From the NCBI GenBank assembly GCA_013204395.1, contig JABMNZ010000022.1:1-38698 (forward strand): a stretch of DNA of 38,698 bases, given 5' to 3'. A program made the position numbers and the translations under genes. The number at the start of each line of letters is the position of its first letter. The first letter of the stretch is position 1. Origin of the DNA: Parcubacteria group bacterium (GTDB taxonomy: Bacteria > Patescibacteriota > Patescibacteriia > UBA9934 > GWF2-40-263). Below the pieces are notes generated by a model that had not been told where the DNA came from, did no database searches, and saw only the letters and a program-made list of their open reading frames with translations. This document shows, piece by piece, positions 13,168-15,246 of the stretch.

Positions 13168-13773
13168 ATGAGACGTTTTCCAGAACCAATTACAAATTTA
13201 GTCGCAACGTTTTCGCGACTACCTGGCGTGGGGCCCAAGACGGCCCTACGTTATGTTTATTACCTTCTAAAACAACCGTCGCATGATCTTGAAGTAATGG
13301 CGCGCGCGCTCACCCAACTCGGAGAGCGCATAGGAACCTGCCCCCGATGTTTTACCTACACAGAACTTGAGACCTGTTTCATCTGCCAAGACCCAAAGCG
13401 AGATCCGTCTATCCTGTGCGTGGTAGAAGAGTCACGAGATATCTCAACCATTGAGGCAACAGGGCAATACCACGGCTTTTATCACGTACTGGGTGGAAGC
13501 CTGAACCCCATAGAGGGAATGACCCCAGACGTGATTCGCTACAGAGAATTGGAAGAGCGCCTTAAGGCAGAAGAAGGAATCAAAGAAATCATATTAGCTC
13601 TCTCCCCCACCAACTATGGAGAAACCACGATCATGTTTTTGCAAAAACAACTGGCTCCTCTTGGTCGATCATTCAGCCGGCTAGCCCGCGGTCTGCCGCT
13701 AGGAGCCACACTAGAATTCGCAGATGAGATAACCCTTGGCGAAGCACTTAGTCAAAGACGTTCAATCCAGTAA
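13168..13773 (+). CDS. recR: Recombination mediator RecR
   Basis: RecR acts with RecO (and RecF) to load RecA on gapped DNA. It shows the N-terminal helix-hairpin-helix (LPGVGPKTALRYVYYLL), a four-cysteine zinc finger (Cys58, 61, 70, 73), and a Toprim domain (CVVEESRDISTIEATGQYHGFYHVLGG). The usual NPTxEGExT motif reads SPTNYGETT. Length 201 is normal. GGGAGG precedes the ATG by 7 nt, inside the end of ybaB. Its terminator is formed by one copy of the palindromic repeat that brackets the PaaX/Cas2-like gene. Confidence 0.95.
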   Translation: MRRFPEPITNLVATFSRLPGVGPKTALRYVYYLLKQPSHDLEVMARALTQLGERIGTCPRCFTYTELETCFICQDPKRDPSILCVVEESRDISTIEATGQYHGFYHVLGGSLNPIEGMTPDVIRYRELEERLKAEEGIKEIILALSPTNYGETTIMFLQKQLAPLGRSFSRLARGLPLGATLEFADEITLGEALSQRRSIQ

Positions 13774-13788
13774 AATTACAATCACATA

Positions 13789-13834
13789 AATGAACGTAGC
13801 TATCCCACCTGGGATTATTACGTTCATTTTTTTT
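13789..13834 (+). terminator. recR terminator formed by repeat copy 1
   Basis: A long hairpin (10-bp outer stem, 3-nt internal loops, 6-bp inner stem) is followed by eight or more T residues on the plus strand. The hairpin is the left 36-bp palindromic repeat plus an extra AA/TT pair on each side. Confidence 0.85.
13791..13826. repeat. 36-bp palindromic repeat, copy 1
   Basis: Arms TGAACGTA and TACGTTCA, then 3-nt internal segments (GCT, TAT), inner arms ATCCCA and TGGGAT, and a 2-nt centre. The pairing of the arms is perfect. The stop codon of the PaaX/Cas2-like gene is its last three bases (13824-13826, TGA on the minus strand). It shares the exact 17-mer TGGGATTATTACGTTCA with copy 2. Confidence 0.9.
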
Positions 13835-14363
13835 CTACAATAAATACCTTTACCCACTCTTCTATACCAAGCAACTTGACCATGGCTCTCATATCGTTGA
13901 TAACAGTATATTTCGTTGAGTATAAGCTGTCGTGCACTCTGGTAAAATCAAAGATGCGAATAAGTGACCTCCAACGACCTCTGATCTTTGCTCCTTCTGG
14001 AATGTCAAAAGAGATCATGCAAACTTTTCCATCTTCAATTTCTTCCGTGCACTGAATTATCCTCTGTTTTAATGCTGCAACCAAAGCATTGGAAGAGAGG
14101 GAGATGATAACCTTATCTCCTTTTCGACAATCATTAACCCACTTCTTTCGACGAAGATCCCTAAGTGCCCGTCTCTTATCTTTCTCCTGCCCATACAGCT
14201 CCTGCCACAATTCCCACTCAGCTTGAAACTCAACATTCTGTCTGGGACCACAATAGGCTGGCAATCGAAGCAATTCATCCAAGAAGCTTACTTCTTCCAG
14301 CAAATCACACAGCACGTCACCCTGGATCGTTAACCCCTTCTTTCTTCTCTTTGTTCTGGACAT
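13824..14363 (-). CDS. PaaX/Cas2-like protein: winged helix plus Cas2-fold domain
   Basis: The 179-residue protein has a basic N-terminus (SRTKRRKKG), a helical region to about residue 60, a winged-helix-like segment (RRALRDLRRKKWVN, then KVIISLSSNALVAALKQRI, 64-102), and a ferredoxin-like Cas2/PaaX_M domain from 111 to 177. The latter starts KVCMISFDIPEGAKIRGRWR with Asp120 at the end of strand 1, where Cas2 nucleases have their catalytic Asp, and continues with the F-x-R-V-H-D-S-L-Y-S-T segment. Such proteins are common in this group of bacteria without any CRISPR array, and none is present here. The start codon and stop codon both lie inside copies of one palindromic repeat. Possible roles are an autoregulated repressor or the DNA-acting protein of a mobile unit. 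Confidence 0.7.
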   Translation of the reverse strand: MSRTKRRKKGLTIQGDVLCDLLEEVSFLDELLRLPAYCGPRQNVEFQAEWELWQELYGQEKDKRRALRDLRRKKWVNDCRKGDKVIISLSSNALVAALKQRIIQCTEEIEDGKVCMISFDIPEGAKIRGRWRSLIRIFDFTRVHDSLYSTKYTVINDMRAMVKLLGIEEWVKVFIVEKK

Positions 14364-14392
14364 ATAAATACCAGGTGGGATTATTACGTTCA
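14357..14392. repeat. 36-bp palindromic repeat, copy 2
   Basis: Same architecture and spacing (8-3-6-2-6-3-8) as copy 1. The right half is identical to copy 1 over 17 nt, while the left half is decayed: arms TGGACATA and ATACCA. The start codon of the PaaX/Cas2-like gene (14361-14363) lies within the left arm, and a TAATAAT box in the right half may be its -10. Confidence 0.85.
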
Positions 14393-14446: not shown

Positions 14447-14535
14447 ATTGATATCAGATTTGTGAAGGCCTTCACTACATCGATACCTCTATGGCATCAC
14501 GAAAACGCCCCTAGGTCAATGGTGACTCTGTGGAA
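14447..14535 (-). other. Gene-free stretch with a 14-bp perfect palindrome
   Basis: No ORF is seen between the terminators at 14446 and 14534. GTGAAGGCCTTCAC (14462-14475) is a perfect 14-bp palindrome. A TTGACC box lies on the minus strand at 14515-14520 but lacks a good -10. A short untranslated RNA ending at the 14412 terminator is possible. Confidence 0.35.
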
Positions 14536-14604
14536 AAAGAAGAGCCCCGGGTGAAATCGGAGACTCCACCCTACGATCTGGGTCGTACAAGGGGGCTCTT
14601 CTTT
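14534..14604 (-). terminator. Branched terminator with a 13-bp outer stem
   Basis: The 13-mers at 14536-14548 and 14592-14604 pair perfectly. Inside are two hairpins: GGGTG/CACCC (14549-14553 with 14567-14571) and TACGA/TCGTA (14572-14576 with 14583-14587). The minus strand ends in CTTCTTTTTCC. It is a three-way junction serving as the 3' end of the 14623-15210 gene. Confidence 0.75.
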
Positions 14605-14622
14605 CACGCGGGGCGCGTTGGA

Positions 14623-15210
14623 CTACTGAGTGGTAGCGGCCTGTGCCTCATCGTGCACTTCGAGCACCTCACGCCAGTTGGTGATCTCCGGTTCGGGCAT
14701 GTGTGGCGTCCACACGATGGCGTGGCGGCACCAGAAGTCGACAGATGCAGTACGCTCAGGCGTCCCAGGCAGGGTGTTCCACGGCTCGTTGGGCGTGACG
14801 CAACCAACGTAGGCCGTCTTGAGGTTGTACTCGCCGTCGATGAAGCGTCGGGCCCCCTCGATCCAGTTGAACCGCTGGGCGACCACAATGACGAAGGTTG
14901 AGATCTGCGGCACACGGTCGTGCACCACGATCACTCGGCTGGGACCTCGGCGTCCCGGGCGCTGCACGAACGACCCAATGATCTCGTCGATGGTCACCAG
15001 TGGAGTTGCCAGCAACGTTGCGGAGCCGATGGGACGTCCCATGTCGATCTCGAACGCGTGGTTCTGGGTACCAACGGGAATCACGAGCGTCCCAATGACC
15101 TCTTCCAGCAAGGTCACCAACCTCTCGTCCCTGGCCCAGTACTCATCAGCGTTCTTGTACGAAAAGACGGTCGAACCGTCGGCCATCTGGTAGGTCTTCT
15201 GCAGGGGCAT
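14623..15210 (-). CDS. Unknown protein
   Basis: This 195-residue protein is not recognised. It has no signal peptide or membrane helix; its beta-rich middle part (SRVIVVHDRVPQISTFVIVV) and aromatic-rich C-terminal part suggest a compact globular fold. The ATG at 15208-15210 is preferred over the one at 15225, because GGAGG overlaps the earlier ATG and is correctly spaced for the later one. It is GC-rich at third codon positions and monocistronic. Its -35 box is in the loop of the ABC-transporter terminator, and its own terminator is a three-way junction. Confidence 0.65.
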   Translation of the reverse strand: MPLQKTYQMADGSTVFSYKNADEYWARDERLVTLLEEVIGTLVIPVGTQNHAFEIDMGRPIGSATLLATPLVTIDEIIGSFVQRPGRRGPSRVIVVHDRVPQISTFVIVVAQRFNWIEGARRFIDGEYNLKTAYVGCVTPNEPWNTLPGTPERTASVDFWCRHAIVWTPHMPEPEITNWREVLEVHDEAQAATTQ

Positions 15211-15246
15211 GTTCTCATCCTCCATGCTGCGTTGCGCAGACGAAAT

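Follow-up and report, generated by a model that had tools for sequence, protein, structure and literature searches.

The 602-bp palindrome–gene–palindrome unit that follows recR in the window (the whole stretch of 38,698 nucleotides analysed) is probably a member of a mobile palindrome system that resembles REP/RAYT and is built on an unrelated protein. Sequence comparisons support this: palindromes bracket the gene and covary with the protein, orthologous sites are filled in some genomes and empty in others, two of the genes evolve under purifying selection, and in the genomes tested solo palindromes are limited to those with the cognate gene. The palindrome-bracketed family, whose protein combines a winged helix-turn-helix (wHTH) with a Cas2 fold, appears to be a kind of mobile DNA that had not been recognised before. 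The features of the unit and of its left neighbour are as follows.

13791–13826, no strand: palindrome copy 1, on the 3′ side of the gene and after recR, holding the TGA stop codon
14357–14392, no strand: palindrome copy 2, on the 5′ side, holding the ATG, left half degenerate
13824–14363, minus strand: ORF of 179 aa, N-terminal winged helix-turn-helix and C-terminal Cas2-fold domain
14049–14363, minus strand: winged-HTH region (residues 1–105), CRP/MarR-like fold by structure and profile matches
13827–14033, minus strand: Cas2-fold domain (residues 111–179), by structure and profile matches
14004–14006, minus strand: codon of the invariant Asp120 (FDIPE motif), the conserved Cas2 Asp position by alignment
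13791–14392, no strand: palindrome–gene–palindrome unit, 602 bp, anatomy common to 85–89 of 99 homologues
13168–13773, plus strand: recR, left neighbour, with a 3′ end that has neither palindrome nor unit in relatives

The original prediction described two 36-nt elements at 13791–13826 and 14357–14392, and both were found there, with 78% mutual identity. As it had also described, the last 17 nt (TGGGATTATTACGTTCA) are the same in both copies, and the ORF ends lie inside the repeats, with the TGA within copy 1 and the ATG within copy 2. The proposed 8-3-6-2-6-3-8 layout holds for copy 1 and not for copy 2, whose drifted left arm retains 6/8 and 5/6 matches, counted by eye. Single-strand folding was good for copy 1 (DNA MFE −8.8 kcal/mol, z −5.6) and poor for copy 2 (DNA MFE −1.0 kcal/mol, z +0.6). 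The direct-repeat score was 17 at the unit, compared with 8 or less for the same upstream region against other windows of the locus, and the repeat pair is therefore not a chance match. Copy 1 had further been proposed to act as the recR terminator. A T-run does follow it, but the terminator scan called neither palindrome copy of the window a terminator and recR of relatives has no palindrome; this claim is not supported. An Rfam search of the window gave tRNA as the only match.

The window case is one instance of a class-wide pattern. The family was present in 36 of 96 relatives in a search with the window protein and in 52 of the 286 genomes of the class in a profile search, at 1–10 copies per genome; the sample consists of MAGs with one genome per species. 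The flank survey covered Ca. Uhrbacteria and other members of its class, with 99 homologues whose flanks were complete. Start and stop regions were compared, and a direct or inverted repeat scoring at least 13 was counted as bracketing. By this measure 89/99 homologues were bracketed, compared with 8/585 mismatched start/stop pairings (direct repeats only) and 1/27 neighbouring genes of the same loci. A stricter, explicit palindrome criterion gave 85/99 homologues vs 6/297 controls. The controls overall were at 1–4%, and detectable flanks were absent in about 10–14% of the homologues. Homologues lacking flanking copies had been named beforehand as a possible refutation, and the observed 85–89 flanked homologues of 99 are contrary to it. 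The flanking repeats are mostly near-perfect palindromes of 28–50 bp, centred on CGATCG (37/83), CGGCCG (18/83) or, in the remainder, other sequences. Their distance is mostly no more than about 100 bp from the start and 80 bp from the stop, so the exact placement at the start and stop codons in the window is no general rule. Ordinary duplicated terminators or chance repeats are a highly improbable explanation: the T-run after copy 1 would fit the former, but the same arrangement recurs across the class with distinct sequences at low control rates, and the scan was negative for both copies. Both the terminator-only and the chance readings were rejected on the basis of the homologue survey, the control rates and the terminator scan. 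When the genome contigs collection was searched, the window protein as query gave no match and a sub-clade alignment matched Ca. Uhrbacteria MAGs. Searches of phage, plasmid and viral contigs with the window protein and the A2 sub-clade found no relative, and vehicle-borne spread is thus unsupported.

The description of the gene product as PaaX/Cas2-like was borne out by PaaX_M matches and Cas2-fold structure matches. Pfam PaaX_M (Cas2-like) matched residues 111–177 of the window protein at E = 6.6e-4, which is under the gathering score when the protein is searched alone, and it matched all 28 aligned family members with a best E of 1.5e-17. The CRISPR Cas2 model (TIGR01573) matched 23 of these 28. 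An AlphaFold (AF2) model of the window protein, calculated with 28 homologues in the input, had a pLDDT of 88 and consists of a CRP/MarR-like winged helix followed by a Cas2 fold, according to structure comparison with VIA-align. The wHTH part reached Z values of up to 8.2 with CRP-family and 6.8 with MarR-type wHTH domains, and the profile search gave ArsR-type matches at E 0.02. The Cas2-fold part gave Z values of 9.3 with PaaX (8a39) and 8.1 with Cas2 (8ia4), and solved Cas2 structures were matched at E 2.7e-4 in the profile search. The chain stops with the Cas2-fold domain, and no PaaX_C domain was matched by Pfam among the aligned members. Asp120, Pro122, Arg128, Arg132 and Ser146 are invariant in all 28, and by analogy with Cas2 we infer that the Asp may be catalytic. 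A PHROGs search gave no matches, and the PADLOC matches were almost all to Cas2 models.

The unit had originally been likened to IS200/IS605. The hairpin ends agree with this likeness, but the protein carries no HUH/Y1 signature, and REP/RAYT or the Rickettsia palindromic elements are closer. A classical IS200/IS605-type or RAYT element would have hairpin ends, one small gene and solo palindromes as found here. The probability of this explanation is nevertheless next to nil, since the protein is a wHTH joined to a Cas2 fold with no match to Y1/HUH families in Pfam, NCBIfam or PADLOC scans of family members. The alignment contradicts it as well, since no His-hydrophobic-His motif with a catalytic Tyr is conserved among the 28 members.

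Every clade of the protein goes with a palindrome of its own. Protein identity correlated with palindrome similarity after removal of pairs sharing neighbours (Mantel r = 0.35, P = 0.0005) and, more strongly, among the paralogues of one genome (Mantel r = 0.60), while the sequence 20 nt beyond the palindrome, taken as a flank control, gave r = 0.00. In G241, paralogues at unrelated loci carry the related palindromes GGGGAAAAGTGTCTGATCGGACACTTTTCCCC and GGGGAAAAGTATGCGATCGCGTACTTTTCCCC. Purifying selection acts on the genes tested, with dN/dS values of 0.07–0.16. At five orthologous solo sites, the palindromes had 1/140 mismatches vs 154/400 in the flanks, the latter figure being inflated by indels in this ungapped comparison. 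Units at the same locus diverge faster across species than their neighbours (55–62% vs 68–83%), and RAYT genes are likewise faster-evolving than their neighbours (PMC2817692).

Solo palindromes were found in three of the genomes tested. The copy number of palindrome 1 is 13 in G006, 9 in its sister genome G024, 2 in G032 and 0 in three other genomes. The two occurrences in G032 are the gene flanks, with no solo copies, whereas 11 copies in G006 and 7 in G024 are solo. Palindrome 2 occurs 9 times in G006 (7 solo), 14 times in G024 (12 solo) and not in G032, a genome in which the window-protein search detected no further family gene. The palindrome of the paralogue occupies 7 places in the window genome, 2 flanking the gene and 5 solo, and one solo copy exists of the window's own palindrome. 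Control searches with the reversed pattern all gave 0 except for 1 chance site with the window half-pattern at 3 mismatches. Among the genomes tested, none without the cognate gene had solo copies. The solo copies are full-length (at least 36 bp), symmetric and near-identical. They lie mostly between co-directional genes, some directly upstream of genes, and divergent promoters were not enriched among the sites. In family f19, sites of the generic palindrome pattern were almost exclusively gene flanks, and solo spread is therefore not universal. At L174 1195–1361 (G006:C10), two palindromes 131 bp apart stand just downstream of an apparent tRNA gene; this site resembles a REP doublet and is empty in both sister genomes. 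At L175 1271–1298, with L116 (G006:C10 50270–50379), a solo palindrome 1 adjoins a palindrome 2 that flanks its gene, which shows that palindromes of different families can cluster.

The restriction of solo copies to genomes with the cognate gene bears on a distinctly improbable alternative, in which the palindromes are moved by another agent (host replication, template switching or another transposase) and the protein silences, protects or maintains them. In CRISPR adaptation, Cas2 is mainly a scaffold and not the integrase, and such a role would suit this alternative, as would the strong purifying selection on the genes and the retention of gene and flanks in G032, where solo copies are missing. 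It is opposed by the occurrence of solo copies only alongside the cognate gene in the genomes tested and by the observation that the palindromes typically bracket the family gene, with no other candidate gene linked to them.

Judged from the alignments of filled and empty sites, the solo copies are insertions. The valS gene of G024 contains the palindrome as an in-frame insertion of 39 nt that is missing in 4 other genomes. In G006 and G024, but not in G032, a palindrome also lies in frame inside two further genes, one FemAB-like and one for a GT4-like glycosyltransferase; these gene names were read off the protein sequences and not from a family search. Intergenic sites that are filled in G006, and often also in G024, are empty in G032, where one intergenic site holds a divergent, possibly decayed palindrome. 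The solo copy of the window palindrome is an insertion of ~56 bp in the 3′ end of trmA, to which it supplies a new stop codon, and trmA is uninterrupted in G001 of the same genus. No clear target-site duplication was seen. The original prediction had proposed comparing occupied and empty sites at the recR 3′ end, and comparison there and at other loci showed that empty sites exist, contrary to the other refutation it had named, syntenic repeats without movement. The paralogue palindrome core is also present twice within one O-antigen-ligase-like ORF of the window genome (L228 1272–1289 and 1438–1455, G000:C27), and these copies may be insertions.

The strongest rival explanation is a PaaX-like regulator. 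The palindromes would then be operators, serving autoregulation and a regulon of solo sites, and would have been multiplied by selection or unrelated duplication. The protein matches PaaX best in both fold and Pfam, a wHTH suits palindromic DNA, and the upstream palindrome copy is close to the start codon. The solo sites are, moreover, strongly conserved across species, as binding sites would be, and some are just upstream of genes. We nevertheless consider this explanation unlikely, because most homologues have a second full palindrome at the stop codon, the solo copies are symmetric and near-identical over at least 36 bp, and copies lie in frame within valS, the FemAB-like gene and the GT4 gene. 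In addition, the sites are mostly between co-directional genes without enrichment at divergent promoters, and orthologous sites are cleanly empty in close relatives. The autoregulator with a duplicated operator, which the original prediction had offered as its second reading, may describe an additional role of the protein, while stop-codon copies, in-frame insertions and empty sites are unaccounted for by it.

The first of the earlier readings, a mobile unit, is supported in its anatomy and in the movement of solo palindromes. The evidence for movement of the whole unit is weaker, because no near-identical copies of the unit were found among the homologues surveyed. Within single genomes, no pair of units exceeded ~72% protein identity and no recent unit duplication was found, from which it follows that the unit transposed long ago, does so rarely, or has recent copies that MAG assembly conceals. 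Related palindromes do accompany family paralogues at unrelated loci of one genome. At the recR locus, the unit is absent in most family members examined, and in several relatives recR is followed directly by an ABC transporter gene with no unit between. G036 has a divergent family member in the opposite orientation at this locus, and its congeners G005 and G023 have empty sites. Three cross-genome unit pairs (L001/L012, L052/L094 and L044/L123) share a neighbour gene and have opposite relative orientation, which suggests that units insert at hot spots or that the DNA between the palindromes can invert.

Returning to the REP/RAYT-like reading, we infer that the protein binds its own palindrome and drives palindrome spread. 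In the mechanism that we propose, the protein of ~180 aa, probably a dimer, would read one arm of its own ~36-bp palindrome with each winged helix, and the dimeric Cas2 fold would be positioned over the dyad. The Cas2-fold domain with its invariant Asp might then nick the extruded hairpin or cruciform, or might present it to replication or repair. Host replication or repair would yield new palindrome copies, which insert in most cases into intergenic sites and at times in frame within a gene, and the whole unit would be moved only occasionally or rarely. We hold more tentatively that the wHTH–Cas2 protein is itself the catalytic mobiliser, copying and inserting hairpin palindromes and sometimes its own gene without an HUH, DDE or recombinase enzyme; this is quite possible, if slightly on the doubtful side.

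The system is REP/RAYT-like in its working and is not a REP/RAYT member. The two share a single gene between two palindromes (85–89/99 homologues here), dispersed solo cognate palindromes (in G006, G024 and the window genome, not in every genome), coevolution of protein and palindrome (Mantel r 0.35, control 0.00), a gene that evolves faster than its neighbours, and palindrome abundance tied to the presence of the cognate gene (PMC2817692). RAYTs, the REP-associated tyrosine transposases (PMC2817692), are however Y1 HUH enzymes, unlike the wHTH–Cas2 fold protein. REPs have a GT(A/G)G or CGTC head, whereas the flanking and solo copies here have no common head and are near-perfect palindromes with a short centre that is often CGATCG or CGGCCG. 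Solo copies number 1–12 per palindrome type, compared with the >100 usual for REPs, and several distinct gene–palindrome pairs occur per genome. IS200/IS605 differs in its TnpA, an HUH enzyme that recognises subterminal hairpins; the HUH signature is absent here. The Rickettsia palindromic elements are found both between genes and in frame inside protein genes (PMC10969869), as are the palindromes here, but are ~150 bp long (PMC10969869) and not ~36–40 bp, and each palindrome here has a candidate cognate gene.

PaaX, the phenylacetate repressor (PDB 8a39), likewise has an N-terminal wHTH followed by a Cas2-like domain, to which the PaaX_M matches of 28/28 members correspond. Its chain has 305 residues in contrast to ~180 aa in the family, which has nothing past the Cas2-like domain, including PaaX_C; 23/28 family members also match the CRISPR Cas2 model, and the genes are palindrome-bracketed. 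The ferredoxin-like Cas2 fold with its invariant Asp is shared with CRISPR Cas2 (TIGR01573, the same 23/28), from which the family differs by the N-terminal wHTH. No CRISPR array or cas1 was noticed on reading the neighbourhood stretches, and the neighbours of the homologues mostly differ. We know of no mobile element with a Cas2/PaaX-fold protein and of no mobiliser for the Rickettsia palindromic elements. A literature search for PaaX or Cas2 with transposons, palindromes and CPR/Patescibacteria, with thin coverage of subscription journals, found no earlier description. No mobile element known to us has a protein related to this family, while the architecture of the system is analogous to a known kind.

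If the protein moves the palindromes, the system would be a counterpart of REP/RAYT that evolved independently and uses another enzyme, would bear on how Cas2 came to act on DNA ends in CRISPR adaptation, and would offer a testable model for palindromic elements such as those of Rickettsia. If the wHTH–Cas2 protein is the mobilising enzyme, the Cas2 fold would gain a role in transposition independent of Cas1. The system would also explain Patescibacteria genes that match Cas2/PaaX models yet have no obvious CRISPR or phenylacetate context. Ultra-small genomes are seen here to carry in-frame palindrome insertions in essential genes.

Two further repeats were observed in the window genome. In the window at 14530–14606, an inverted repeat (GAAAAAGAAGAGCCCC ... 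GGGGGCTCTTCTTTC) of terminator-like appearance lies just past the 3′ end of the small hypothetical ORF 14623–15225 (minus strand), which matched no Pfam family above the cut-off. Downstream of the paralogous unit, at L002 around 1998–2018 and 2938–2957 (G000:C24), CTCTCTGTCATCCGGCAGGG occurs twice, each time just before a small ORF, and represents a second short repeat family.
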